In this document: piece after piece, positions 12,448-49,110 of the stretch
How positions within the stretch are numbered: the first letter of the stretch is position 1
Layout: each line of letters opens with the position of its first letter
NCBI RefSeq assembly: GCF_000002425.4
Contig: NC_037260.1
Location: 8,027,808-8,091,807, forward strand
Length of the DNA stretch: 64,000 bases
Direction of reading: 5' to 3'
Source: Physcomitrium patens
Taxonomy: Eukaryota; Streptophyta; Bryopsida; Funariales; Funariaceae
The notes under the pieces: model-generated
Told to the model about the DNA's origin: nothing
Seen by the model: the letters and a program-made list of their open reading frames with translations, nothing else
Database searches by the model: none
Position numbers and translations under genes: made by a program

Positions 12448-15061
12448 ATGAGGATTCGCAAAGGCCACCGCTGCTTGCCGCTGGCGCCCGCGGATCGTTC
12501 TTGTTTGCAGGAGGATTTGGCGCACAGGGATCAAAGTGGTCGTGCGGTAGATGCCCGGAAAGCCGAGGTCCAATCGCCTGGACTCGCCGACGGCACTGCT
12601 GCTGTTGCTGCACCCGCAGACGTTGCAGCCACCAGAGGCTCTCAGGACCTGGTACTGCTGGCGTGGAGATTGTAGTTGCCGGGTTGTAGTTAGCACGTCG
12701 TGAGTTTTGGATCCACGTGTAGCGTGTGGCTAAGTGGTATTTTTATGAGACTGTTTGCAGACGCCAGACGTAATGAATTCCGGTGCGGTATTGTCGAGTT
12801 TTGGCCGAAAAGGCAATCTTCGGACGCCGTTTCTACTTGGAACCGATGTAGCTCTCGGACTTGGCTGGCATTGAGAAATGAGTTAGTGTATACTACTGGT
12901 CCAAGTGTGTTACTTGAAGCCTATTTAGACGTGTGGAGAAAATCTGTCTTCATTATATCTGCAGCGGTCCATGGTCGATATGCAACACTGACAGACCTGA
13001 CCGGTTTCATGTTGCAGCAGGAACATGCACACGGCACGTCTTTGGATAGAGACGCGAGCCTGGAGGATGATCCAGAAAAGAACAGGTACGTCCTCCTCTG
13101 AAGGCCATCTTCCGGTGTGTTTCCCAATTGTCGCATTGCTGGTATTTCCACTGGTGGGCAATACTCTAGATGCCATAGCTGTGGTCAGCACACGTTTCCG
13201 TAAATTGTAATCAGGTTCTTTGTCGTTGATCGACTCGCCCCGTCTAGAAGCTTGTCGTTGCTACACAGATAACTTTGTGGGAGCATCGAGCCTAGTAGAC
13301 AGGAATCAACTGGACTGAAAGAAATGCATAAATGTCTTGTGCGAAGCCATGGGTCTGACGCGACGTCTGACCTGTGGAAGAATTGCTGGATAACAGGGTT
13401 TCCGCCGATGATGATTTCAACGACCAGTCCGCGGTTCAGAATACAGGTGATCACTGCTTCCACAAGTATACTGATTGAGCCCCTATAATTCTGAGGGTTT
13501 GGAATAGACTGAGACTTGCTCCGACAGCCCTTCATCTTCGTGTTCTCAGATCTTTGTGACGCAACTTTACCTTAGGGTTCAACTTTAATAGCAGGACCCT
13601 CCACCTCACATCTTTACGAAATCGCCCTTCTAGTCTGAGTGATCTCACACAGATTGATCGCGTGTTGTCTCAGTTGAGACCGGGTCGTCAGCTGATGGAC
13701 ATTCAAGAAAGCGTCGCGCGTCGATCTCCGCGGAAGTGAAACTCTCCATCAGCTCTATCATACGAGCAGGTACAATACTTGGGGATGTTAAGTGCGCATC
13801 TTCATTACGTAATGAGCATTTGAAGACGATTCAGCTGGAGGTTGCTTAGGACCTGATTATTGCTTGATTGCAGGTCATTGCAACCATAATTTCTTGGGTA
13901 CAGTGAGTCATTCTCTAGGTTTCGTGCTTAGCACTTCTATGACCTAGGATCTTGCAGGAGTCGGTGGGTAAGCCTGAATTGGTCCTTGTGTTCAGTTCAG
14001 AGTTGCGCAATGTATGCTAAATTGTGCAGCAAAACATGTTGATAGTGTAAGGAACGGATGGTACCTCGTCGAACCTAAATTTGAGCGGCAACTTGTGTAA
14101 CCTAGGTGTGGCACCCGTGAAAACTAATTCGCCAACGGCTCTAGTAAGTGCGCAGTCAGTTGTCACGTCGGACTTGTCACTTGTCAAAGACCGTAAGGAC
14201 GCGAAAGATAGCAGCCCATCTATTGCAATGAAAACCATGGATCAGCACAATCTTCTGTTGCAGTCTTTGAAGCGCGTCTGCTCTACTGCTGTGAATACCG
14301 GGCTGACAGCGAAAGAGGCAGTTGCAAAAATCCGAGAGCTAAGCCTACCAGGTTTGAACGAAGGGGGTGAGAGACTGATCGTTCAGGTAGCTAAAGCATT
14401 CCGTAGTTCTTCCGCTTTCATCGAGCGCGAGGAGCGTGGAAGATACTTTGTACAGGATTCTTCGAGTTTAAAAGAGTGGGAAAATTTCAATGCTGAAGAA
14501 TCCAGTGTTAATTGTGAGATGGCAATTTTGAGAGAACCTACAGAAGCGGAAAAGGCCGAAGAAGCTGCGAGGCAGTTGCAAAGTTTGCAGAGGGTGCAGG
14601 AGAATATCGTTGATCGTGAGGGGGTAACAAATCGCAAGGAAAAAAATGGGCTCGAGGGGAAATTAGATCATAGAATTGTAACATTGAGAACCAAGAGCGG
14701 CGCCAGGGCGTCCAGCTCACAGAAGGCGAGTCTGTCGCGGGATCAATCAGGATCCCGGTGCAATCGGGATGATGGGAAGGGTTGGAGATGTTTTCGACCT
14801 GCGGAAGTAGGATTTTCTTTGTGCAAGTACCACCGGGATCAGATCCGCCGGGCCGAAATTCGTCGAAGGAAATCGAGGAATAAGTCAAAGGAACAGATTC
14901 CAGTGAAGCCTTTGTACCCTATACCGAAGGATGTCAAGATATCTTCCATTTCAGAAGTGGATAAATCAGTCGACGCCAATATGATTGAATCTGACGACGA
15001 ACTGCCTGATATTAAGCGTCGGAAATTTGTGAAAGCAAAATCCCTGAAGTCAATACTGTGA
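12448..15061 (+). CDS. WRC-domain protein 1 (tandem copy A)
   Basis: This is a predicted nuclear regulator of the plant WRC family; its precise role is unknown. The four exons are 12448-12651, 13018-13085, 13397-13446 and 14052-15061, summing to 1332 nt (443 aa) with all phases consistent. Exon 1 opens with MRIRKGHRCLPL, a start I recall from other plant WRC proteins. Residues about 174-240 (LLLQSLKRVC to RGRYFVQD) resemble a small HARE-type winged helix. The WRC motif C-x9-C-x10-C-x2-H lies at Cys344, Cys354, Cys365 and His368 with the core DDGKGWRC, followed by an Arg/Lys-rich stretch that can act as a nuclear signal. The C terminus ends in FVKAKSLKSIL. The exon borders were chosen because the second gene at 17221-19599 has the same lengths for exons 2 and 3 (68 and 50 nt) and the same signals. 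No QLQ domain is present, so it is not a GRF. Confidence 0.85.
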
Positions 15062-17220: not shown

Positions 17221-19599
17221 ATGAGGATCCGTAAGGGTCACCGATGCTTGCCGCTTCCGCCTGCCGATCGTTCCTTCTTGCAGGAGATCCCGGTGAATCC
17301 GGAGAAAGAGGTTTGTTCGAATGAGGACAGGAAGGACGACGCGAAGCAGGCGTTATTACGACTCGTCGCGCTTGCTGCTGCTCCAGTTGCAGACATCATC
17401 AGTGGTCCTCAGTACCTGGTAGTGTCGATTGCGGAATATTGTAGTTAACACGTTGCAAGTGTCGGGCGTAAGTAATATGTGTGCTCATGTGATATTTTAT
17501 AAGATTGCTTTCAGACACTAGAAGTATTGAATTATGGTGCGCTGTTGGTCCCGCCCTATCGAGCTTTGGTAGATAAATCAATCTCCAGGCGTGGTTTATT
17601 CTCGGAAATGTTGTAATTCCCAGGCTTCCGGCTGGCATTGAGAAACGGGTAGAGAAATGTCGGTTCATGTAAATAGCGAAGTTAGAGTATGTTACTGGGC
17701 CGACTGTGTTTATTACAACGGATTCTCCATTCTCGTGTCCATAAGCTGCAATCATGTCTGCAGTGCGGCCATGGTTGATTTGCAACACTTATAGACCATA
17801 ACTGTTCCACGTTGCAGCAGGAACATGCAAACGGTTCATCCGTGGAAAGAACTCCAGGCTTGGATAATGATATAGAGAAGACCAGGTATAGCCTCTTCCG
17901 AAGGCTGTTATAAATTCGTGTGCGGTAACTGTAGCATTGTTGTATGGAGAATCTCCAGTCCGCCGCATTGCTCTGGGTGCTTTAGCTGTGGTCAGCAAGC
18001 CTACATGTTGTGACACTCGTTTTCAACTACAAAAATGGTGCCGCAAGATCGTAGTGATGTTTCTGCAAATAGAAATTAGTCCAGACGACGACCGACGAAA
18101 CGCACAAAGTTATTTTATGAAGCGGTGGATCTGACCTATGGAAACATTGGTGGATGGCAGGGTTTCAGCTGATGATAATTTCAACGGGCACTCTTCCATG
18201 CAGGACACAGGTAATTATTTGTTGCACAACTACTTTGATAGAGCTAAAAGTGTTGAGATTTAGTACTGAGCGCATTGAATGCTTTTGAATCAGATTATTG
18301 TTGTCAGTTTTCTGAACTTACTCACGCCACAATATACTTCATTTGGTGATTACTTTCAAAAATTCCCTTCATCTTCGCGTCCAGAACTCTGTAATACAAA
18401 TTTTACTTAGGGCACGACCTTAATAGTACGACTTTTCACCACACATAAGTATGAAAAACTTCAGGTTTCTGAATCTAAGTAATCTCTTACAGATCTATCA
18501 CGGCTTTACCCTGTTGGAGTTTGACTGTTTGATTATATGCTGTGCGATATGTCCAGGATTCTGATTTGGTCTGTGCTGTTGTTCAGGTATCGATTCAGCA
18601 GTGAGGAATCAGACAGCAACACCGCCGAGGACGAAATCTGTCTTTACCAGGCACAAGCCAGTCTTCACAGCTGGAACAGCCCGTAGCAACACATCCACCA
18701 TAGAAATGGAAGATAAAGCAGATTTGTTACTGCAATCATTACGCAATTTTTGCTCAAAATCGGGTATAACTGGTGTAAGTGCTTGCGACGCAGTTGCCCA
18801 GATGATAGAGCAAGGCTTACCAGGGTCAAACGACGGGGATGAAAGTTTGACTGTGAACGTGGCTAAATTATTTCGCGACAGCTCTAAATTTATAGAACAC
18901 GAAGGGCGTGGGAGATATTTCTTCCCGGATTTTCCTGCACGCGAAGAAAACGAGTCGTTGATTACAGGAGGTTCAGAATTCTATGGGGGAGAAGCGGTTT
19001 CAAGCAGCGATATGATAGAAGCTGCTAGACAGCTACAAAATCTACAACAGAGCTATTCAAATCTGCTCGGCTCTGGTTTTCTTGAACTGAGTGAATCTCC
19101 ATCCTTCCATGATGGCGATCATAAGACAGTTAAGAACACGATTGAAGGACTTGTTGGACAGTCAAATGTTGGCAGAGATCATAAGCATGTTACAGCAATA
19201 AATCAGAGAGCCAGCTCGAATGTTTCCAGATCACAGAAAGTTATCCGTGCTGACCAGGTTGAGTATCAGTGCAAGCGGGATGATGGAAAAGGCTGGAGGT
19301 GCTCTCGACCTGCAGAATTCGGGATCACAATGTGCAAATATCACCGAGAACAGATTTGGAAGTCTCAAAGTCGTCGAAAGAGAGCCAAATTTGACGCGGA
19401 ACTAACCGTTCCTGCTGAGATTTCTTCGTTCACATACGTGGCCAATGCGCGCGCCGTACCGAATGCCGTCACAACAGCAAAAGATCATTGTACATTTCTG
19501 GACGAAGAATTGCCGTACGATGAACGTCGGCAGTTTGTAAAGGCGAAGTCTCTGAAGTCTCTACTATCGATCAACGGTGGGCAGACGAAAATTTATTAA
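17221..19599 (+). CDS. WRC-domain protein 2 (tandem copy B)
   Basis: This is a paralogue of the preceding gene with the same orientation and layout. Exons 17221-17418, 17818-17885, 18161-18210 and 18587-19599 sum to 1329 nt (442 aa). It starts MRIRKGHRCLPLPPADRS. Residues about 151-218 give the winged-helix-like region, ending in GRGRYFFPDF. The WRC motif lies at Cys334, Cys344, Cys355 and His358 (CKRDDGKGWRC), followed by a basic run KSQSRRKRAK. The tail RRQFVKAKSLKSLL matches copy A closely. Between these conserved blocks the two proteins have diverged widely. Exons 2 and 3 are identical in length to those of copy A, which supports the model. Predicted to be nuclear; partner and targets cannot be read from sequence. 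Confidence 0.85.
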
Positions 19600-33088: not shown

Positions 33089-33754
33089 CTACCTGACGAT
33101 ATACTGGTACTGAGCATCTTCCCGAATGAAGAAAGAGTACACAGAGCAGGTGATGAGAGGCACTCCGACTAGAATGCTTAAGAAGAGAAGATGCCAGAAC
33201 CCAGAGGGAATGAACCAAACAAACACCATGCCCACAAGCCCAGCCAGCATGAAGAGCTTCGTGGCCAGGCAATGCACCTCCTCCCACACGTGCGCGCTTT
33301 GCAGGGTCCAGGGGTCCCGGATGCCCACCACATGATTCTGCTCGATGTAATTGAATGCTCCTCCCAGCGTGACCAAGAAAAGGCTCATGAGGAAAACAAT
33401 GGGAGTGGTGCCCAAGGTGTGATCTGTGAAGGCAGCCCACAGTACAATGACCTGGAGCACTGGAGAGAATAAGCTCGGAGACATGACGATCATGCTCAGG
33501 GCAGATTGGGAGGATGAGTCCAAATTCTCGCAGAGTGGGTCGCACTTGACAACAAGCGCTAGCATGAGAGTTAAGACGATTCCTATGATGGGGATGAGTA
33601 TGATGCCGAACTCTCTTGGAATAGCAATACTGCCCCAGAAATGAATTTGGTCCGGTAGCCAAAACCAGCATCCGAGTCCTGCCGCCAGGCTGACCAAACT
33701 TGTTGCCCCAGCGACTTGGATGGCACTCCCCGAGATATTGTCCATGTCATCCAT
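33089..33754 (-). CDS. SdpI/DUF1648-family integral membrane protein
   Basis: An intronless frame of 221 aa with about six membrane spans (near residues 12-33, 50-69, 86-108, 117-135, 162-182 and 187-210). The N-terminal half, LPDQIHFWGSIAIPREFG followed by a span, follows the DUF1648 pattern. Residues 142-161 read VVGIRDPWTLQSAHVWEEVH, close to the SdpI hallmark I know as GIRTPWTLSSEEVWRKTHR. SdpI of Bacillus subtilis (about 207 aa) is a membrane protein giving immunity to the SDP toxin; the role of distant members is unknown. In a plant the job is open: sensing or protection at a membrane is only a guess. The start at 33754 is the first Met and the protein length suits the family. Flanking DNA is plant-like, so contamination is unlikely. 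Transfer from a bacterium is a fair inference but not shown. Confidence 0.8.
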   Translation of the reverse strand: MDDMDNISGSAIQVAGATSLVSLAAGLGCWFWLPDQIHFWGSIAIPREFGIILIPIIGIVLTLMLALVVKCDPLCENLDSSSQSALSMIVMSPSLFSPVLQVIVLWAAFTDHTLGTTPIVFLMSLFLVTLGGAFNYIEQNHVVGIRDPWTLQSAHVWEEVHCLATKLFMLAGLVGMVFVWFIPSGFWHLLFLSILVGVPLITCSVYSFFIREDAQYQYIVR

Positions 33755-34990
33755 ACCGAGCTCTGAAGTTTACAGCTAGGGGTGCGAAATCAAAGAGGCT
33801 TGTTCTGGCCTGTATCAGTTGGAGAACACTGCAATGAGAGAAAGCAACGATTTCATACTCTATCTTACTATACTTGATTCTAATTCTCTCAATCATATAA
33901 TAACTTTCTTTCTAGGGGCAAATTCTATCTCCAGAATCTTCATTTCATGTCCTATGTAAGACGAAATAGTGATCCAATTGAGGTCAAATTCGACTACTTA
34001 ATCATTCATAAATTTCACGCTTGGAATACTTTTCTGACATCCATACAGCTCGTTACCATCATGTGCACCCATTGAAATCAAATACGATATAAAACACTGC
34101 TGACTCTGGAGGGAACTCAAGAATCCGCCTCACAACCATGTTGCATGAAGACTGCATCATGCCTCAATCTTGCACATTTACGTCGCATCGGGCTGAGTAA
34201 CATCAGACCTAAATTGTAAAATTACAAATTCCGACAGAGTATACAGCCCCAAACAAACGCTTTCAATGCACACGCAAAGCCCGTCCCTAAATTCCACCTC
34301 CGCTTCCTCACCTTGTCCCACCAAAGACTAACAAAGAGTTACAGACACCCACAAACGTAGTGTAATAGATGGAAACGGAGGAACCGCAAACATGCTCCTC
34401 TAACACCTATTTCCAAAGTAGACTTAGAACATCAGAATCAAAAAATTTATACACTCAAATCACAAACAGCTTCCATCATCGAAGCTCCAGAAACGTCTAA
34501 ATGGCTTAAATTTCCAATCACATGTCAAACAAACAGACGCAGGAAGAAGAAAATGAAGAAAGTGGGGAGTAACACACACCTCCAGCAGGAAAAATGGAAC
34601 TAAAAAGAAGAAAAATAAATAGATTCCGCTGTAGGGTAAATTCGAAAACACGTTGAAGGACCCTTCCGGGGAACTGCGGAGACGTCCACTGCGAATCCGA
34701 AAGAGATTGAAGCATCAGAAGCACGAGAATGCGCAAAACCCGATTCCGAGAGGGGGGGGGGGGGAGGCAGAGAGCGAAGCCTACGTAAGGGTAAGGAGAA
34801 GCAGACTGTGTGCAATGATGATGTGGCGGTCTGACGTGTATATTTGCTGAGCTGGAATGATCGGAGGTGGGCTCTTTTGACCCAAAAATTGTGCTCTCAC
34901 CAAACCACTGCATTTCGGAGCGAGAGACTGCCGTTGCCACGTCAGATTACATGACGTTGTCCCAACTATCATTCGATTCCTTATCCTTTG
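33755..34990 (-). promoter_or_regulatory. Upstream region of the SdpI-like gene
   Basis: The region is mixed: AT-rich near the start codon, then GC-richer at 34500-34950 with a run of 13 G at 34752-34764. Open frames of up to 140 codons on the minus strand around 34518-34940 are low in complexity and more likely a 5' leader, possibly spliced, than protein. Confidence 0.35.
34935..34944 (-). promoter_or_regulatory. TGACGTGGCA element upstream of the SdpI-like gene
   Basis: The plus strand reads TGCCACGTCA, the exact reverse complement of TGACGTGGCA. A second ACGT core in TGACGTT follows at about 34952-34958. It lies about 1.2 kb upstream of the start codon. Confidence 0.4.
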
Positions 34991-35011
34991 GTTTTTGGAC
35001 AAGAGTGCTAT

Positions 35012-35074
35012 GAGCATGTCTATCAAATAAGCTCCATGAGCTTGTCTATCACATAAGCTCCATGAGCTTGTCTA
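35012..35074 (+). repeat. 26-bp tandem repeat, about 2.4 copies
   Basis: Units begin GAGCWTGTCTATCAMATAAG and end CTCCAT. Copies start at 35012, 35038 and 35064, the last one partial. The repeat marks the edge between gene DNA and the AT-rich relic island. Confidence 0.9.
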
Positions 35075-35079
35075 GAAAG

Positions 35080-37028
35080 GATAAATAACAAATCTCTTAA
35101 AAATATGTATATGAATGGTTTCTCAGTTTGATGTTTAGAACAAGAAAATTTGACGAATTTGTAGAAATTTTTATTATTTAAAAAGATCTCAAAAAATAAA
35201 TTGCTTTAATTTTAATAGATATATGTATGAAAATATTATATTTTCACCCACAAATAATTATGATAGGATACAAAGACAATGGATTAGAAGATTAAAAAAT
35301 ACAAGATATTATATTAAAAATTAGATTTAATATAAGTCTTAAAACATGACAACAAAAAAATTGTTCTATGATTAGTATTTATAAGATTAAGACATTTTTC
35401 TTTTGAGTTATCTTCTTAATTATACAATTGCAACTACGTTTTATAAAATGCATGGAATACCTTAAAAATTTAAAAAGTCTTCTATAAATTCATCTAAAAA
35501 CCTAAAGTACATTTCATATTGCTATAGAAGATTATCAAAGCTTCTTTAATACTATTTAAGATTTTAGAACTATATTTTTTACATACTCTTATCATTATTC
35601 CCTACAAAGGCAGTTAATAGATCCTTTTAGCCATTGATAGTATCCCATACCAGTACAAGAAGACTATCTTGATATTTGATCATTGTTGAGGCTTTTATAA
35701 TTTTCTTAAAAAAAAACATGAGGGGTGGTTTCTACCTCCAATAATATTACCAAATATCAAAAGTGTCTTTAAAGATTGTGGTACCAAACATGTTGTATTT
35801 TGCCATCTATGTGAAGCAAAACATGTTGTTTTTAAAGGTCTTTATTTCTATTATGTTGTCTTGAAAGCTAAGACAATTGCACTATTTCATTTGGTAACTT
35901 TATAAATAATAACTCTTGAATTAAATTTGTTGATTTTTGATTTTTGATGTTCTTAGTACCACAAATATAAAAAAACCATAATTAAAGATAAAATATAAAA
36001 TACAATTTTCATTTGTAAATGATCAATGAAAATAAGGTGTAATCAATATGCAACTTGTTTATCTATTTACAAATAAGAAATGGTCTAAGTTTATAATGTC
36101 ATGTTATATAAAAACTATCTTAAAAATACATTTGGCATCTAATTGTGGAAGAATTTGAAGTTTGATTTACAACCAAAAATAATACTTAAGATATTTAGAA
36201 ACACTATTTGGCATCTTTGAATAATTCAAGTAAGCTTTCAATTATCTTAAGTACATCCTATCAACTTTAGATTTTTTTTATACAAATCTCATTATATTTT
36301 AATTGATTTAAAAATAATTCTTAAATAATCTTTAATATACTTTAAATGAATACTAATTAAGTTTTAATCAAATTTTTTATCAAATTTTAATATTGATTTG
36401 GTTACAATATGCTTGAATTCTAATAACCTTCCAATGAATTATATAATTAAGTTCAAACTTTTGACACACATTAATATCAACTATGACCATATAATCAAAA
36501 AAACATTATATGGGGATCACCTACCAATCTTACAAAATTCTCTAAAGTATAAATCTTTTATACTTCTCAAAAAAATCAATGTCAATTTTAATATTTTTGA
36601 TTGTATGAAATCTTTACAAAGTCATTACAAACTCAAATCACTCAAAATCACTGCGTAAAATATCTTAATTTAGTCTATTCTTAAATCTTATTATTTAATC
36701 AACAAAAGAATTTCAATTCTAGATCATAATTGGTCATCTTTGAGTATCAATTCTTGATTTCTTAAGATAATTTTTGCTACAAAATATTTTTATGTCTTTT
36801 CTAAATATATACCTATATTAATTATTTTTCTCATCTATTTTTTTTTCCTCAATTATGGCCATACAAAATAAATTAAAGTCTATTTTGTAAAGAGGCAGCA
36901 TTAATACTTACTAATTTTATTACCTCTTTGACTAATATCTATACTTCTAAGATAATTTACTATACTATTTGTAATTAAATTCTTCTATAATATATTCTTA
37001 ATTTTTTTTACTTAATATTTATATTATA

Positions 37029-37067
<39 letters not shown>

Positions 37068-38818
37068 AACTTGTCACATAGGCGGCTAATCTTCATATTA
37101 CAATAATATAATCGTATGTTGTTGCTAACAAGGACTTAATGTTATTTCTTGTGATATACATTAGAGTTATTTAATTTTTTTTAAATATTTTTTAAATTAT
37201 TCCTTTAGTATTGCAAGTAGCTCTAATGAATTATCTGTCAAATTTTCTATCTCAAAATTATCAACTTATGAGAAGTAAAAAATATCAAGTTGTGGATAAT
37301 AACCATAATTAGCAAAAAAATGTTTGTTGAATAGAAGAATGTATTGTATTATTATAAGAAAATTTTATCATTAGTAAAAGAGTTATCTAATCATCTTGAT
37401 GATATTTGATGGTATATTATAAATATTGCACTAAAATTTGATCATCATGTTTTTTTTATTCATCAATATGAAGATAAAAAATAAAAGATAATTTTATATC
37501 TACCTTCAAAATCTTCAAAATAATTTTCCAAAACCTTGATAAAAATTAAATTCTTCTATCAAATATAATATTCTTTGATAATCTATGATAGCATTAAATA
37601 ATGTCAAAGAAAAATTTAGTAATTTCTTCAAATATGATAGATTTTGTATATGCTATAAAATATGTTATCTTGGTGAAACAATCTAATATCACAAACATAA
37701 AGCCATATAAACTTGAGATTAAAAGATCCATGATAAAATCCATGGAAACAAAAGACCGTAGTTGTATTGATATAAGTAGTGGTTATAGAAGTCAATAATG
37801 TTGATGAAAAGGAATTTTAGATCTTGAAAAAATATTACATGATTGTACAAAGTCTTTGATTACTTTTCATATTTGAGGTCACTAAAAATCTCTTCAAATT
37901 AATTCTAATGTCTTGTGTGTCCAAAATGACAAGCAATTAGAAAGTTGTAACAAACTTGAAGAGCTTATAATTGTGCTTCAGCTTTATAAATATATAAAAG
38001 ATTTTTAAAATAGAGTATATTATTCTTAAATTCAAATTTAAAAATATGAAAAAATTTAAAATAATTAAATTTAATTTTACAAATAAAAAAATTAAAATAT
38101 ATATTTTATTCAACTTGACTAAAAAAATCTATAAATTATTTGATTTCATTGATTAAAATTAAAATTTCTTTATTCATAAGAAAAATATTCATTATAATTC
38201 AAAAATTTCATCTCTTTTATTTGGTATAAGATAAAAATATCTAAGAAATATTTTTGATATTTTTTATTTTATTTTTTATATATGTGATTTTAAATTAAAA
38301 TCTTGACAAAGATATGTTCCAATAGCTTATCAAAAATTTAAAATATGTGTTGATATGAAATACTAGAGGTTCTTATGATCCATTTTAATAGTCATTAGGA
38401 TTGAGGTGTCTTCTGAATAATAGTTCTATTTTTAATATAAATTCACAATTGCAAGAAATTTTATATCATAGATCTTGTAGTTGATCTTGGTTCTAAAACA
38501 TTTTAATGAATAAAAAGCTACATAACAAAGTTTTTAATTTACTTCAATTTGTAACAATGCTACATCTAAAGGAAATTTTAATGCATCTATTTTTATAAAA
38601 AATACCTAAGAGAAGTTGATGTAATACAAGATTGGTGCAAAAATTAAAATTTGTCTTTAAAGCTTCAAATGCTTAATAAAATTCTTTATTCCACTCAAGT
38701 TTTGTCTTTAGAAATCAAATGTGTAAGTTAACTTGCAATTTGAAAACATTCTTAGTAAAAATCAAATAGTAATTGAAAAATTCTAAAAAATATTAGAAAT
38801 ATCTTATTATTCTTGAAA

Positions 38819-38820
<2 letters not shown>
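35080..38820 (-). mobile_element. Ty3/gypsy chromovirus relic, minus strand, 5'-truncated
   Basis: An old, heavily broken element lying in reverse. Its 3' non-coding part at about 35600-35800 matches, in reverse complement, the 3' region of the plus-strand relic near 44870-45030. The integrase segment at about 37580-37760 reads like MDFIMDLL.SSLY.F.FVI, parallel to that of the plus copy. RNase H and RT remnants appear to follow toward 38800, where a long AT microsatellite ends the recognisable part. Low complexity and extreme AT content suggest great age. Confidence 0.65.
37030..37065. repeat. (TAA)n microsatellite
   Basis: About twelve units of an ATA/TAA triplet within the minus-strand retroelement relic. 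Confidence 0.9.

Positions 38821-38824
<4 letters not shown>

Positions 38825-38859
<35 letters not shown>
38825..38859. repeat. (AT)n microsatellite at a relic junction
   Basis: About 35 nt of pure AT dinucleotide. It separates the minus-strand relic from the LTR-like start of the plus-strand relic. Confidence 0.9.
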
Positions 38860-38860
<1 letters not shown>

Positions 38861-39394
38861 TAATAAATATCTACATGAATAGATAAAAGTAAATAGAAAT
38901 AGATTAATTTCATAATACTAAATCATGAATTAAAACATTTCGAATGTCATATAAAATTCTTGGCCATGTTCTTATGAATATACTTATTCACTTTAACAAA
39001 CTCATTTTGTGATAAATTATATATTGGTTCAAATGGTAGTTGAACTCCCTTTTAAAATTCAATGAAACAATCATAAGGACAATGTTCTTGCATGATATTT
39101 ACATTTGTTGATTCAAAAACATCTTGATGATTTTAAAATCAATTCAAAATACTACTTTAAGTATTTTTACTATTGAAAATAGATATGATATAAATAATAT
39201 AAGATAATAAACCTTTTATAAGATGCAAAAAAATACTTATATCTATAAATAAGAATTTGGTGATATTAGACTTATGATTTTTTACTTAATTAATAAAAAA
39301 ATTAAATATATTTAAAAAATATTTAAGATTATAAGAAATCTAATCTATTTAAAGATTATATTTATTTAGCCATAATAAATCTAAAATAATACCT

Positions 39395-39850
39395 TTTAGA
39401 GAAGCTTTATAGATGCTACTTTGACTTTATATGCATTTGTAGTTGATTGGTAGGTTAGAAACTTGGTCAATAAGTTAACCATGTATTAATAGCTTACAGA
39501 ATAAGTTAATTATGTGGCGCACATTTAAAAAACTTGACTTATAAATTAAGATACATGTCTTGCAAATTCAACATATTTAGGAAGACTTATAGGACATCAC
39601 CATGAAGCTTCTAGTTAAGAATATATATGGAGGCAAGAGTGAAGCTTTTTTCACTCTTATCAATGCTTTTTTAGTCCTTAGTCTTATTTCTAGACTTTTT
39701 AGTTTTCTCGTTTTTGGCAATAGTTATTCTAGTTTAATATTATTTCATCTTTGAATGACTTTTTAATTCTTTTTAGTGTTGCAAGAATGTATTGAGGATT
39801 TCTTTTTCAAAATTCATGTCCTTGACAATTTGATAAAAGTACTAATTTAC
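39395..39850 (+). repeat. LTR-like block, copy 1
   Basis: Shares long blocks with two copies at 45350-45720 and 45800-46240, for example TTTGTAGTTGATTGGTAGGT and AAGAATATATATGGAGG, then TTTTTAGTCCTTAGTCTT. This copy belongs to the upstream end of the plus-strand chromovirus relic. Confidence 0.75.
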
Positions 39851-42800
39851 TATTTCTATCTTATTTTAGAAGTAAGTAGATTAGCTCACTTTTATTATTG
39901 TATTTTGAAGGTTGTCGGCTATCGACCTTTAAACAAACAATCTTATTTTGTAACACTGATCTTTTCTTTAAAGAAAGTAGATTATCCCTCTTTGTGAAAA
40001 TTTTTATTTCATATTAGAGGTTGCACACTATCCTCTTTTAATTTAATTTTTTGAATTTTTTTTGAGTTGTCTATAGAAGAAAAGATCATAGATATTACTC
40101 TTAGTAGAAGTGAGAATAGATTTGTAGTTATTACAGATCTTTGTGAGCTTATTAATATTCTAAGAATAGAAATTTCATGTATCTCTAATATGAATTATAG
40201 AAATATTATTCCTACACCTATGGAAGAAGTTTAGAGTCTACAGTAAGAAGTTGTGTAATTAAAAAAAGTAAGTAGATCCATCTTATAACCAAACCTAAAA
40301 CATTTTACTTCTACAATTATGATGAGGACAAAAGTTAGTATGCCTAAGAAGTTTGATAGAATAAAATCAAAATTTTGAAGATTTCTACTATAAATCAAGT
40401 TTTATCTAAGGTTGCACCCCTTCCAATATCTTCATGGATTTATTCAAGTTGGATTCATAGGTGCACTTCTATCAAGAAGTGCTCTCTCTTGGTTTGCACC
40501 TTTAATAGAAAAAGATTTATAATTCTTTTATGATTTGAATTCATTCTTAAAAGTGTTTAAAGCTATATTTGGAAAAAAAGATCAAGAAAGAGTAGCAGAG
40601 ATAGTCAGCTACCATCTTATCTTTACAACAAGGATCATTGTCAGCTACTATATATGCTACTGAATTCCAAAACCTCGCTTGCAACATGGACTAAAATGAT
40701 AAAGGCCTTATCAATAAATTTGGATATGGATTGAAGGATAATATCAAAAATTTGTTATTAATAATGCCAAAGGGAAAATCTTTGAAATAATTCATTGCTC
40801 AAGCCATTGCATGCAACAATCAATTATTTGAAAGACATCAAGAACAAAGACTTGGTTGAAGAAGAACAAATCAAATATCCTAAGTAATTCCTAAGTTTTT
40901 AGAAATTCATTCATTAAGGCCACAATCAATGCAAATTGATACGATACGTTTTAAATCTCTCATAAGAGAAGAAAAGACCTGACAACATTGAGAGGGCTTA
41001 TGCTTATATTATAGAAAAGCTAAACATATTGCTCCACATTGTTGAAAGAAACAATGCAATCACAGAACGAGAAGCATAGTTGCCAAAAATATAATATATT
41101 AAAAAACAAATTTCTTCAATTACAATAGGAACTATGCAGCTAAAATCTTGTGTAATTCTTTATAAAGGTCATATTTTCTCCTTATTTTAAAATAGAAGTT
41201 TATTTAGGACCAAAAAATCACAAAGGCTTAGCTTTATTAGATTTAGGAGCCTCAATCTATTTTATAGATGAAGATTTTGTTAAAAAAAAAATAATATCAA
41301 TAATTAAAAAAGCTAAACTTGTACATCTAAGAGTCATAGATGATCATTTGCCATCTTTAGGAGATGTCACGTAGGAGATTGTTCCTTTAGATGTAACAAA
41401 TAAATATCATAATAGCTCAATAATATTTAATGTAATAAAACCTCTATCCAATTTGATTATTTTAAGATTATCTTGATTAAAAAAATATAATTCTCAGATA
41501 GATTGGATTTCTTATAACATTCATTTTTTGGATAATTTAATCCAAAATCTCATTATTTAAATAAAAATACATAAGTCTAATACATCCAAATCGTTACCGA
41601 TAGGTGCAAGAGCTTTTATGCATGCCTTAAAAAAAAGATTATCTTTTGCTTTACATGCCATGCCTATTTTTGATGGCAAGAAGATATCTAGTGGTATTTC
41701 TAGCTAGTATTAAGATTTCCAAGATGTTTTTGAAAAGAAAAATATACATATTTTTCTAGAGCATCGTCTTTATAATTGTTCCATTGATCTTCACGAAAGA
41801 TCTCAATTGCCATTTGGACCAATCTATAGCTTATCACAAAACAAGTTGATTGCATTTAAGAAATACATTGATAAAAATTTGGCTAAGAATTTCATACATC
41901 ATTTTAAATCTCCATTTGAGAATCCTATCTTATTTGTAAAGAAAAAAGATGGATCTTTGTGGATGTATGTGGACTATTAAGGACTCAATAAGATCACCAT
42001 AAAAAATAGGCATCCTCTACCTTTGATTTCAGGACTTGATCAATTGAATCAAGAAAAGATCTATACAAAAATAGATCTATGAGAAGCATATAATTTGGTA
42101 TGCATTAAAAAAGTAGATGAATGAAAAATTATGTTTTGAACTAAGTATGGGCATTTTAAATATAATATCATGCCTCTCCTACTCATAAATGCACCAGTTG
42201 CTTTTCAACAACTAATAAATGATGTCTTTTATGAATTTCTTGATGATTTTAACATCTATTATTTACATAACATCTTAGTTTATTCTAAGAATACAGAAAA
42301 GCATGAAGTTCATGTTTGTCATGTGTTACAAAAACTTAGAGATACAAGATTATATGCCAAATTTAAAAAGTATATATTCTATATTATTCTAATTGACTTC
42401 CCATAATATATCATTTTCAATGAAGGACTAATGATGGATTTGAAGAAAGTCTAAACCATCATGTATTAAAAGATTTCAAGAACACTAGGAGATGTGCAAT
42501 GCTTTTTGGACTTTGCCAATTACTATCAGATCTTTATCAAGAATTTTTTTTAAGTGACAATTCTACTTATAAGTTTGACTTGTAAAGACAAACTTTAGTA
42601 GAATAAAGAAGCTAAAGCATTGTTTGATGCTTTAAAAAAAAAGATTTATTTTTGTACTAATTTTATATTGTGTTGATTTTTCTAAGGCATTTTTTATGGA
42701 AACAGATGCATCAGACTTTGCCTTGGATGCAGTATTATTATAAATAGAAGCAGTTGTCAAATTCCATCTAGTAGCTTTCTATTTCAAATTTTTTTTCAAT

Positions 42801-45349
42801 AGCTAAGTTTAATTATGAGATCCATGACAAAGAGCTCCTTGCAATCATGGATTCTTATTAAGAATGGCATCATTATTTAGAAGACATCTTGAGTCTAGTC
42901 ACTATATATATAGATGATAAGAACCTTGAATATTTCATATCGGCTTCTATTTTGAATTGTTTCCAAGCTTATTGGAGTATATCTTTATCAAGATTTGATT
43001 TCAAGATCACTTATTGATCCAAAAAATAAGGTTTATTAGATGCTCTTTCTAGAAGTTTTTATCTTATACCTAAAGAAGAAGATGCATTTTTTGATCAACA
43101 AAGGATAATTTCCTTGAAGCTAGAGCATTTTCATGTTTGAGCAGCAAAATCAACATTATTTGTTGATTCAACCTTTGTTAAGTAAATTCAATAAAATATG
43201 TCCTTAGATCTTCTTCTCCATGATATCAAGAATAATTATTCTAAATCTCATGATAATTCTAAGTTTGAATTCAAGAACAACCTACTCTATTTTGAGAGAC
43301 AAGTATACATTTTAGAAGATAAGACATGATTACGTGTTCTTCAAACTCTTCATCACTTTCCAACAACTGGACATTTTGGATATAAGAAGACTTTGGAGCT
43401 AATATCAAGAGATTTTTGGTGGCCTCAAATGTAGAAGACAATCAAAGACTTTGTATAACCATGTTATATTGATTGAAGATCCAGAACTCCTTACCATTGA
43501 CCTTATAGATTTCTTTAGCCATTACCTATTCTTGAACAACCATGGTCTTATATTTCTATGGATTTTATCATGGATCTTTTAGTCTCAAGTTTGTATGATT
43601 CTATATTCGTCATAGTAGATCATTTTATCAAGATGGCATATTTTATACTATGTATAAAATCTATCACAAGTAAAGAAATGGCAAAGTTTTTTTTAATAAC
43701 ATTTATCACTATCATAGATTACCTAAAGATATTTTATTAAATAAGAAGACTCAGTTTATATTAAGATTTTAGAGAGTACTTTTTAAGATTTTAAAGGTAG
43801 ATATAAAACTCTCTTTGACTTTTTATCATTAAATTGATGGGCAAAAAAAATAGATGAATGAAATTTTGGAGCGATATCACTTATCAATAAGATCATTAGA
43901 CAACTTTTTTATAATTAGCAAAGTTTGTATATAATATTTTGGTACATTTTTCTATCCAATAAATACTTTTTTTTACCAATTATGGTTATCATCTATAATT
44001 TGATACTTTTGACTTTTCAAAAGTTGATAATCTTATGGCAAAAGATTTAGATTTTTTTTTATTAGAACTACATGCAACAATGAAGGCGTAATTAAAAAGA
44101 GCTGAAGAACGACAAAAGATTAATGTAGATGCCTATTGCAAAGAACAACTATAATTCAATAGAGGTGACAAAGTATGATTACTTCTTTGTAATATCAAGA
44201 CTACTCATGCTTGTGATAAGGTTGTCTATCGTAGGCTTGGACCTTTTTTTTATTAATAAACAAGTCAATCTTGTTGCTTATCAATTATATCTACTAGATT
44301 TTATAAAGATCTACCTTGTATTTTATATACCTCTTTTAGAATCATATAAGAAAGTGAATATCTTGAGAAGAAGATAAATGTCACCTCTTCTTATAGAAGT
44401 AGATAATAATCAAAAAATTTAGGTGAAAGAAATCTTAAATTTAAGGCGGTGCCAAAATAGATTAGAATATCTTGTTCATTGGCATGGATATGATTTTAGT
44501 GAACATACATGAGAGCCATCAAAAAATCTTATAAATAAAATAAAGAAAGTTGAAGCTTTTCATTTATAACATCTATCAAAATAAAAATAAAAACTAGAAA
44601 ATCTTTTCTACAACAGAAACAAGATCAAAACAAGATAACACTCTTCCTTCTATCCTTCCTTGTAGCTTCTATGTATTTGTAATACTAAAGAGATGGAGAA
44701 CCAACAAACAATAGATTCAACTTAAGAACTTTCATTTGTTGACTTATCAAACAAGACATTGTGATTGTCACAACTTTTAAGACAATGTAATTGAGATGAA
44801 GATCTTGAGAACGACATGTACTTCCTCAAATGGATGATAAGATAAAATGTATTTGATATCACGACCTTGGAAGGAATTTCTAATGTTTGGTGATTTTATT
44901 AGAGGTAGAAACAACTTCTAATGATGTTCGAAATGTTTCATTTGAAGGAAGTTATGAAGACCTCAACAACAATCAAATAATAAGGTGGTCTTCTCACCCT
45001 AGTATAGGACACTATCAATGGCTAAGAAGACCTATTAATTATTTTCAAAGAAAACAAAGATCAAAGTATGTAGCAAATATAATTTGCTGTACCTTGGATT
45101 TTATCAATACATGATGACTACTCCTTATGGAACTTGTTCCTAGAAGGAGAAGTAATATCACGAATATACATATGTAATCTAATAAATATCTATATGATTA
45201 AATAGAAGTAGATAAAAGTAGATAAAAGTAGGTTAATTTCATAATACCTTCTAGACAAGCTTCTGTCACAAATATATACCTATCGTAATTGTTACCTAAG
45301 TAATATGAATAGATAGAATTAGATAAAATTAGATTAATTTTATAATTTC

Positions 45350-45720
45350 TTTTAGAATAACTTTTTAGAAGCTTTTTAGACATTATTTTGACTTTATATA
45401 TATTTGTAGTTGATTGATAGGTTAAAAACTTGGTCAACAAACTACCTATATACTACATGTGTAGATAGCTTGTGGAACAAGCTAACTATAAAGTGCCTAT
45501 ACAGAGAACTTGCCTTGCAAGTCAAGATACATATCATACAAAATCAACACATTTTTGGAGGTCCTATAGAACGTTGTCACATAAATCTTAGGTAGATGAT
45601 ATGTACATAGGTAAGAGTGAAGCCTTCTTCACTCTTGTCAAATCCTTTCTTGTTTTTAGTTTACTTTCAAGAATCTCTAATTTCTTTGTATTTTGGCAAT
45701 AGTCATTTTAATTTTTTTTT
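45350..45720 (+). repeat. LTR-like block, copy 2
   Basis: A downstream copy of the block at 39395-39850, containing TATTTGTAGTTGATTGATAG. The end part is shorter or more diverged than in copies 1 and 3. Confidence 0.7.
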
Positions 45721-45799
45721 AATATATATAATTCTCTATTTCTATTTCTTTGAAAGAGTTTCACTTATTTGTTTACTTTCATTAAGTTCTTATTTTTGA

Positions 45800-46240
45800 T
45801 AGCTTCTTAGAAGCTTCATAGATAATGCTTTGACTTTACATGTATTTGTAGTTGATTGGGGGATTAGAAACTTGGTCCAAAAATTAATTACATATTGGTA
45901 GGTTGCAGAAGAAGTTAACTATGTTGTGTACATATAAAAAACTTTCCTTGTAAGTTAAGATATGTGTTTTGCCAAGTCAACATGTTTTAGAGGTCCTATA
46001 AGACATTGCTACATAGCTCCTAATTAAGAATATATATGGAGGTAAGAGTAAAGCCTTCTTCACTCTTCTCAATGCCTTTTTAGTCCTTAGTCTTGTTTCT
46101 AGACTTTTTAATCTTCTTTTTTTTGGCAATGGCCATTTTAATTTAATAATATATCATCTTTGAATGGCTTTTTAGTTTTTTTCAGTGTTGCAAGAGTATA
46201 TTGAGGATTTCTTTTTTTGAAATTCATGTCTTTAATAATA
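45800..46240 (+). repeat. LTR-like block, copy 3
   Basis: A third copy placed just behind copy 2 and close to copy 1 through its end (TGTTGCAAGAGTATATTGAG). Its presence means the 3' end has one more LTR-like unit than a simple element, from a duplication or a nested insertion. Confidence 0.7.
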
Positions 46241-46250
46241 AGTTTTTTCT

Positions 46251-47881
46251 TACTCAATAAGAAGTTTAAAACATATTGCATTAATTTGTATATCTTTTAT
46301 ATTTGAATATATATATTAAAAAGATGTTAATATTGCTATTGAATTATAAAAATGTTAATACATACTTCTATAATACCCAGATCAAAATTTAAATAATCGA
46401 TAATTATAATTTACAATAAGAATGATTACTTGACTTAATAAATAAAAATCAAGTAATTTGAGAAATAATTTCTTTATCTCATGTTATAATCCATAAAGAA
46501 TTTGGCTAATAATTAGAACATCATTTCACTTCATATTACTTCTAAGTTGTTAAAATTGTGAAGTATATAATGCTATTCATTGATTTTCATGTTGCAAAAT
46601 ATAAAATTTATTGGTTGCAACATAAATTACATCATGTTTCTCATGCATGGATTTAAATTCTATCATTTTTTTTAAAATATTCAATATTAAATCATATTAT
46701 TTAATAAAAGATAAAAACTACTATAAAATATAATTTAAAAATAGTATTTTAAAGATCTTGACTTATGATCTTAGAATTTGATAGCTTTGAAATTGAAGTT
46801 CAATTAATAGTTATATTTGATGAATAAATGTTCAAAATTTTAATTTTGTGCTATCAAACTACTTAAGTACAATAATTTTTAATTCTCTAGTACTTGAACA
46901 ATGTTCTACCATAAAAAAAACATATAATTTGGTGTAGATATTGAAGCAACTCCAATCATTTATATATCTTTAATTCATGTGAATTTTATTACTTCTAATG
47001 GTTGTAAATTGAGTTGATATATTATAGGCATTAATTCCCTCATTTGTTCTTATTTTTTGTTATTGCACTTTCCATTTCAAAAATCTCTACCATAATAATG
47101 CAATAGAAAAAAAGATGTCTAATATCACTCAAGTTAAGTAGAAGATGGATCTCAAGAATAAAAAAAAATCTAAAAATAATATCAATTTAGAAGTTATATA
47201 TATTGTTTAATTTAGGATTACATGGAAATGTTCTCTATGACCTCCAATGCATGTCCAACTTATAAGATACATATCTAATTTGTAAGATATATATATATTC
47301 GCCACATTTCCAACTTGTATTATAAGTGGTCAACATATGCAACATATGGCCAACTTGTTGGCCAAGTTTTCAACCTATCAAATATTTATAGATATGTATA
47401 AAAGCAAAATTTACATCTAAAAAGCTTCTTTACAAGATATTTTTAAATTTATTTAAATTTATCTACTTCTATCTATTTATAATATTTAGGTCATTATTGG
47501 AATAAATATGAATATTTGTGAAAATTGGTAGAAACATGATATTATTTAAATTATGCATAAACTATCTATTAATGACGTGAATTAAAGAAAAACTTTTAAA
47601 ATACTATAAAATTAACGAATCATTGAAAAATATATAAAAATAAAAATAAAAAATAAAATAGAAATAAATATAAAAATGATTATTAAATATAAAGATATTA
47701 AAAAATATTATATCAAGACTAATTGATAAGAAATGTATTAATAAGAGTAAGAATGGCTATAAACTTATTTTCATATATATAAACTACCAAAAAGGTATTA
47801 CAAAATCTTCTTAAAGATTGCAAAACTTGTGGCATTAACATCCAATTGTAACTTGCTTCCAACATAACTTTTTAAAAGTAA

Positions 47882-47922
<41 letters not shown>

Positions 47923-49110
47923 ACATGGTATATTTGTAAAAGTCAAAGTATTTAATATGTGCCTAAAAAACTTCCTAAAATTTTTTTAAAGAAGATTTTG
48001 TCTACTTCTATTTATATTTATTTATTGATATTCACTTCAATTCATTTAAATTATATAAATATTTGTGACATAATTCAAGAATGCTATAAATATATTAAAA
48101 CTTTTTTTTTATCAAACAAATCTATCAAAAATAGTGTTGAATTAAAAAGAATAAGATATTAAATTTAATAAGAAAGAAATTCAAATATCAACTTATAGAA
48201 CTTCTATACAATATAAAAAAGTAACAATTAGTAAATTCAATTCAAGAGTTATTATTTATAAAATTACTAAATAAAAAAGTTAATTTGTTTAAAATTATAT
48301 AATTTTAAAATTATAAAAGAGACCTCCAAGAAAAATATATCTTCCTTCAAATAAATAATGAGATATAATATATTGAGTACCACAATCTTAGAAGACTTTT
48401 AATGCTTAATAATACTATTAGAGGTAGATACTACATTTAATGGTATGTATAATGTATTGTTTGAAATTAGTTTTGAAGAATTTAACAATAATCAAATAAC
48501 AGGATGGTATCTTGTCTTAATAATTGGCTTTATTAATAATTGAAGGGGCCTATCAACCACCTTTGTATATAACATCGATCAAAGTTTCTTGATAATACTT
48601 TTTCAATAAGATTTAGATATCTTCAACTAATGAAGAAATTTAATTATTCCTTGTAGAACTTCTTATCTAAAAATATATATATTATAATATATGTTTGTAT
48701 TCTTAACTAAATAGAAGTAAAAATAAATAAACAAAAGTAGATAGAATCATGTTCAAAAGATAATTTCTTCTTTAAGAAGCTTCAAAGGAGTTTTTGACAT
48801 GCACATTAAATATTTGGGCTTTTTATAGATATGTCACATAGCTATTCAAATTTATTTTAGATTTTTTTATTTTTACTTCTATAACAATGAATACTTTTAT
48901 AAAACAATCAATACTTAAAACAATCAATATTTTTGCAAAAGTATTGGCAAAGATTATTTTTATTTTAAAACATGTTCCAAAGAGTTTACTTAATGTATAT
49001 TCAATTACCATATAGGCCTAGCTTTAGACTTTAGGTCTTTTAATCTTGAGATTTAAATTTTAATCCTAGGACCACTAAAGCTTCAAAAATAGAACTAACT
49101 TTAGACCATT
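46251..49110 (+). mobile_element. Further chromovirus-related fragments
   Basis: Very AT-rich DNA with no open gene. A segment at about 48340-48820 repeats the 3' non-coding region of the plus-strand relic (compare 44810-45250; both hold the CAACAATCAAATAA part). LTR-like phrases also occur near 47180-47480. These look like remains of at least one more copy of the family. The rest is unassigned. Confidence 0.5.
47890..47920. repeat. A31 homopolymer
   Basis: A run of about 31 A inside AT-rich relic DNA. It could be a decayed poly(A) tail, but no LINE or SINE body was recognised beside it. Confidence 0.85.

Follow-up and report, generated by a model that had tools for sequence, protein, structure and literature searches.

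An intact SdpI/YfhL-family gene in the nuclear genome of the moss Physcomitrium patens: a plant-type branch of probable prokaryotic origin with reversed loop charges

The analysed window was a stretch of 64,000 nt of Physcomitrium patens (assembly GCF_000002425.4, contig NC_037260.1, positions 8,027,808-8,091,807 of the forward strand). A frame of 221 aa is read on the minus strand from 33754 down to 33089, beginning with ATG and ending with TAG. The first-pass annotation had described it as full length and undamaged, and the frame bears this out. The features considered here are as follows.

33089..33754, minus strand: intact coding frame, 221 aa, for a predicted six-helix membrane protein of the SdpI/YfhL family (frame, Pfam, homologues, AlphaFold2 model)
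33137..33346, minus strand: Pfam SdpI domain, residues 137-206 (PF13630, 47.1 bits, cut-off 28.2)
33272..33337, minus strand: hallmark stretch, residues 140-161, N...GIRDPWTL.....W...H (motif and charge counts)
33428..33745, minus strand: N-terminal half, residues 4-109, probably DUF1648-like (profile-profile alignment and predicted layout, not Pfam)
33755..33828, minus strand: proposed part of the 5' leader adjoining the ATG, 74 bases after the acceptor (from splice signals)
33829..34579, minus strand: proposed 751-bp intron of the 5' leader, GGAG/GTGTGTGTT ... TTCTCTCATTGCAG/TG (from splice signals)
5.1-6.1 kb of the window: AAA_2 frame (Pfam)
7.8-8.3 kb of the window: Clp N frame (Pfam)
14-15 and 18.6-19.6 kb of the window: two WRC-domain frames (Pfam)
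51-55 kb of the window: phospholipid-translocating P-type ATPase, in two pieces (Pfam)
L003 1393-2449, minus strand, contig C10 at about 13.99 Mb: three-exon paralogue L003 (DUF1648 over its cut-off, SdpI below)

The Pfam search detected SdpI in the window protein with an E value of 2.7e-12, and its score over the cut-off upholds the SdpI identity first proposed. Judged from its sequence, the protein almost certainly belongs to the SdpI/YfhL family. DUF1648 gave no Pfam match at E values up to 10, and NCBIfam returned zero matches. The sole other Pfam family listed, LAT, was rejected because its score lay under the LAT cut-off.

The genome comprises 470.4 Mb in 101 contigs; the one that bears the gene, at around 8.06 Mb, is 17.9 Mb long. 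A Pfam scan of ten long window frames gave matches for six, including the WRC-domain frames. The WRC domain is known as plant-specific. Because of the 17.9-Mb contig and the plant neighbour genes, the gene is integrated in a plant nuclear chromosome. The plant neighbourhood described earlier is thus real, but the CCHC gene and the retroelement relics named with it were not confirmed among the ten frames scanned. The coding frame has a GC content of 52% (66% at third positions), which resembles the values of its two paralogues (55% and 54%, with 66% and 71% at third positions). Two further observations concern the window. Upstream of the gene, positions 35000-49000 form a 14-kb block at 18-29% GC, flanked by 45-48% at 33-35 kb and 45% at 50-51 kb. 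The WRC frames (14081-15061 and 18601-19599; 326 and 332 aa) lie on the same strand with starts 4.5 kb apart, and they are perhaps a local duplication.

The gene had also been called intronless. The coding frame is indeed unsplit, but consensus-like splice signals make a 751-bp intron likely in the 5' leader, ending 74 bases upstream of the ATG. An unsplit coding frame of a family found in prokaryotes (Pfam SdpI matches in five of 14 control genomes) could in principle be a bacterial contaminant or a non-functional insert. We give this explanation almost no weight. The locus is deep in a 17.9-Mb contig that carries plant genes in the window, the frame is intact and its homologues are conserved. 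Besides, a nine-residue plant-type pattern scanned against 84,980 prokaryote species genomes hit 49 stretches, with 0 confirmed relatives.

An AlphaFold2 model of the window protein was built from 14 aligned rows (mean pLDDT 77.5, pTM 0.75). It contains six long helices at residues 4-28, 47-70, 80-109, 117-134, 154-178 and 186-210, in agreement with the six spans predicted earlier, the membrane insertion itself being a prediction. Helices 1 and 2 are separated by a short hairpin. The hallmark loop is modelled with low confidence (pLDDT under 50 at residues 141-152). The model of the bacterial-type protein P0016 (13 rows, mean pLDDT 84.6) has a broken helix 1, a hairpin, five long helices and an extra short C-terminal helix, and the layout of the two predicted models is similar. 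Profile-profile comparison aligned residues 18-216 of the plant-type profile with three bacterial rows, and residues 4-216 with fifteen bacterial rows at a probability of 99.5%. Since these alignments span both halves and the model layouts agree, homology of the N-terminal half to its DUF1648-type counterpart is probable, though it was missed by Pfam. Members of the family commonly, though not always, have a DUF1648-type half. The earlier assignment of a DUF1648-like half is therefore supported by the profile alignment, the predicted layout and the DUF1648 score of the C10 paralogue, but not by a Pfam match of the window protein itself. A Foldseek search listed 70 matches at E values up to 10 and 0 at 0.001 or better.

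A six-frame protein search of the genome found three related loci, namely the window gene, L002 (contig C6, 14.37 Mb; 40% identity to the window protein) and L003 (contig C10, 13.99 Mb; 31% identity). In the Pfam SdpI search of the genome, the window gene and L002 were over the cut-off and L003 was not. L003 is a split gene for which a script gave two three-exon models of 233 and 225 aa. Of these, the 225-aa model has the better donor; its introns measure 205 and 174 bp. The L003 model scored 32.3 bits for DUF1648 (cut-off 28.7) and 22.7 bits for SdpI (below the cut-off of 28.2). A database protein of 225 aa matches the spliced L003 model at 98% over its whole length, the contigs in question having at most 1,269 bases. 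Since it is an unbroken copy of a split gene, we infer that its contig is transcript-derived. The database homologues of the L003 type are P0017-P0025. Two of them, P0022 and P0023, carry unrelated residues just before the same HESKHS point at which the L003 exon boundary falls, which suggests that the boundary is common to them. The L003 type would therefore not be recent. About 1 kb upstream of L002, a tandem array with a unit of about 30 bases was noticed by eye (L002 1-450, contig C6 at about 14.37 Mb).

With the window protein as query, 12 database proteins matched at an E value of 0.01 or better, which is beyond what chance would give. All of them carry SdpI, they are 52-100% identical, and the query is covered to at least 97% in ten of the 12. 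The closest homologue, P0001, has one difference, I45M, and the others are 52-81% identical. A search with their alignment, in which 7,998 candidates were scored, added P0013-P0015 (41-45%) and the bacterial-type P0016 (23%). Some single rows deserve mention. Residue 45 is M in ten of 13 window-type rows, P0001 included, I in the window copy, and V and L in two others. P0012 (215 aa) is nearly identical to P0011 except for its first 50 or so residues, which are unalignable with the family; this N-terminus was perhaps read from an intron or misassembled. P0015 scores 21.2 bits for DUF4405, below the cut-off of 26.7, and P0021 bears a precomputed PF09685 label in place of SdpI or DUF1648.

For prokaryotes, 1,392 genomes of four phyla were drawn, with cyanobacteria, actinobacteria and planctomycetes outside the draw. 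SdpI relatives at an E value of 0.001 or better were present in 74 of 350 genomes in the phylum of an Anaerolineae record, 14 of 349 in that of a Thalassotalea record, 43 of 345 in that of a Balneolaceae record and 122 of 348 in that of a Brevibacillus record. The top match to the plant-type profile A4 in these genomes was 84.7 bits. With profile A1, ten full-length window-type proteins score 373-429 bits. The label 'plant-type' is our reading of the database proteins, adopted because the pattern scan of prokaryotes gave no confirmed relative and the best prokaryote score was far lower.

Motif and charge were compared in 131 prokaryotic, 17 window/L002-type and nine L003-type rows. From 153 frames, four shorter than 180 aa were removed and P0016 was added; taking 19 near-copies out of the resulting 150 left the prokaryotic rows. 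They are a non-random set, 80 being the best matches to a bacterial alignment and most of the others the top matches to the plant-type profile. The 26 plant-type rows are the window protein, P0001-P0015, P0017-P0025 and the protein of L002; the L003 model was not among them. All seven residues of N...G....WTL.....W...H are kept in 17/17 window/L002-type rows, which substantiates the SdpI hallmark noted at first, in 98/131 prokaryotic rows and in 0/9 L003-type rows.

The charges around this motif are reversed. In loop 2 (residues 71-84), the mean charge is +1.45 in prokaryotes (range -2 to +4, with seven of 131 rows below 0) and -2.12 in window/L002-type rows (range -4 to 0). In the hallmark loop (residues 135-163), the prokaryotic mean is +2.82 (range 0 to +6, with 0/131 below 0) and the window/L002-type mean is -2.53 (range -3 to 0). 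The change is milder in the L003-type rows (mean -0.78, range -2 to 0). The prokaryotic and plant-type ranges of this loop touch only at 0. At single positions, the window protein carries E at 138 and 159, two sites that are mostly K or R in prokaryotes. At 138, K or R occurs in 116/131 prokaryotic rows, against E in 26/26 plant-type rows. At 159, 102/131 prokaryotic rows carry K or R and 17/17 window/L002-type rows E or D, the L003 type being mixed. Earlier counts of charge and motif on 149 prokaryotic rows with repeats gave the same picture as the 131-row recount. By the positive-inside rule, the basic loops of the bacterial proteins face the cytosol. Because the charges that would set the orientation are those that changed, the plant protein cannot be oriented with certainty.

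The origin of the branch was approached with two IQ-TREE trees, both quick searches without bootstrap; in two of the three AU tests below, a constrained search gave a tree slightly better than the free one. For the 75-row tree, 14 plant-type rows were selected and combined with P0016 and 60 of the 138 prokaryotic frames. For the 73-row tree, 17 rows (long branches and near-copies) were dropped and 15 Bacillota rows were added. The 14 plant-type rows share one side of a branch in both trees (SH-aLRT 95), and the group stands beside, not within, the sampled prokaryotes. The nesting of moss sequences inside a bacterial clade, which the first-pass annotation had put forward as a check, did not appear in these trees; the plant-type group has a long stem and lies outside the sampled bacterial clades. 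The stems of the window and L002 types measure 0.74 and 0.90 changes per column in the 75- and 73-row trees, respectively, and those of the L003 type 2.03 and 1.84. Because of its long branch, the absence of the full seven-residue motif from all nine rows and the milder charge change, a single origin of the L003 type (clade C) with the window and L002 types is insecure, and it may not share one.

AU tests rejected none of three candidate donor groups. Joining the window and L002 types with Chloroflexota plus haloarchaea gave p 0.563 and a log-likelihood 2.06 above the free tree. With Pseudomonadota, p was 0.55 and the log-likelihood 2.19 above the free tree, and with Bacteroidota and kin the values were 0.266 and 14.62 below. 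The tests thus single out no donor among the three. The same AU results leave the position of the branch undecided and would also suit vertical inheritance, in which an old eukaryotic or plastid-derived family was kept here and lost or diverged elsewhere. The single group on a long stem and the apparent sharing of the L003-type exon boundary with P0022 and P0023, by which the type would not be recent, point in that direction too. Against it, Pfam SdpI was matched in five of the 14 controls but not in Synechococcus elongatus, although this argument is weak with only one cyanobacterium among them. Vertical inheritance is in our view a doubtful but serious alternative, and an old prokaryotic origin of the branch is the favoured one.

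The old horizontal transfer suggested at the outset accordingly fares in two ways: an intact nuclear member of a family that ranges through prokaryotes speaks for it, but the trees point to no donor clade. Transfer into the plant lineage is plausible, and it is the known range of the family that makes it likely. Transfer alone would not surprise, since 273 candidates have already been published for P. patens (PMC11228847), and the window gene may already be among them. The open literature on SdpI and DUF1648, covered as titles and abstract openings, gave no plant SdpI. In the available part of a fungal DUF1648 paper, DUF1648 was merely an entry in a domain list. What the present analysis adds is the reversal of charge and the split paralogue.

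For the function, a guide is SdpI itself, whose helices 1-3 bind the SdpC toxin and whose helices 4-6 bind the cytosolic repressor SdpR, and which is so far the sole characterised member of the family, as described in PMC11995493. The SdpR family (NF033789) had 0 matches in the P. patens genome; all 14 controls were matched, two of them over the cut-off. The genome was read exon by exon in this search, so an intron-split SdpR repressor could escape detection. It may be asked whether the window protein still shields the plant cell from SDP-like membrane toxins of soil Bacillus. When expressed in a B. subtilis strain without sdp genes, SdpI protects it against SDP; the same source reports that immunity is toxin-specific, SdpI giving no protection from the related YIT toxin (PMC6818787). 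In addition, the window protein is only distantly similar to the prokaryotic rows (median identity 21%, highest 27%), its loop charges are reversed and the genome search for the SdpR family gave no match. SDP immunity is thus quite unlikely as the present function, as far as the sequence can tell.

Because the loop charges are reversed and the partner repressor is apparently lacking, the plant proteins are suggested to be distant SdpI relatives that now do another membrane job. One such job would be that of a membrane enzyme, transporter or lipid-binding protein, with the N, W and H of the motif as a site and not a tether. The strongly conserved G, W, T, W and H residues could form a small site, and since SdpI is the sole characterised representative (PMC11995493), other roles in the family are possible. 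The fold searches suggested no site, Foldseek having given no match at the stricter threshold, which is weak evidence against it. This role seems rather unlikely to us.

Our main reading, to which we assign a probability of roughly 60%, is that the intact nuclear gene in the window represents a small and conserved SdpI/YfhL branch of plant type that was gained long ago from a prokaryote and has since been re-tooled. In the mechanism proposed, the branch would have been acquired first and re-tooled afterwards. The first half of the protein would meet a hydrophobic ligand or a membrane state on the non-cytosolic side, and the other half, which carries the conserved motif loop, would hold a cytosolic partner other than SdpR. 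The switch of the loops on that side from basic to acidic charge, together with the lack of an SdpR-family match, suggests a different plant protein as this partner. Such a tether or sensor is a tentative proposal, with the odds somewhat against it. The fuller version is speculative and less likely still: an early moss or land plant would have acquired a bacterial protein of toxin immunity and signalling, which was then duplicated and made into a membrane sensor, with the face that held the repressor flipped in charge for a new plant partner. If the main reading is true, an integral membrane protein joins the old microbe-to-moss gene gains. A plant branch that keeps the motif while the surrounding charge is reversed is also a natural experiment on the role of the motif. 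Gene targeting is routine in Physcomitrium patens.

The window protein can be compared with four known systems. Like B. subtilis SdpI, as described in PMC11995493, it has six helices with the SdpI domain in the C-terminal half; unlike that system, P. patens has no SdpR-family match in its genome, and the plant-type hallmark loop is acidic whereas it is neutral or basic in the 131 prokaryotic rows compared. The plasmid SdpI of Staphylococcus simulans (76.5 bits for Pfam SdpI) is likewise without a DUF1648 match at an E value of 0.01, but it is annotated beside SdpR-family and SDP-family toxin genes (plasmid sdpR-sdpI), unlike the window gene. With the bacterial DUF1648+SdpI proteins (P0016 and relatives), the window protein shares the alignment over residues 4-216 and the hairpin after helix 1. 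The P0016-type proteins differ in a first loop about six residues longer, in the DUF1648 detected in P0016 and in a neutral or basic hallmark loop. Finally, TrpP of Corynebacterium glutamicum belongs, like the window protein, to the SdpI family, although it is bacterial and has three helices that correspond to the C-terminal half only. Because homologues of SdpC and SdpR are absent from the C. glutamicum genome, TrpP can be regarded as a family member with another role, according to PMC11995493.
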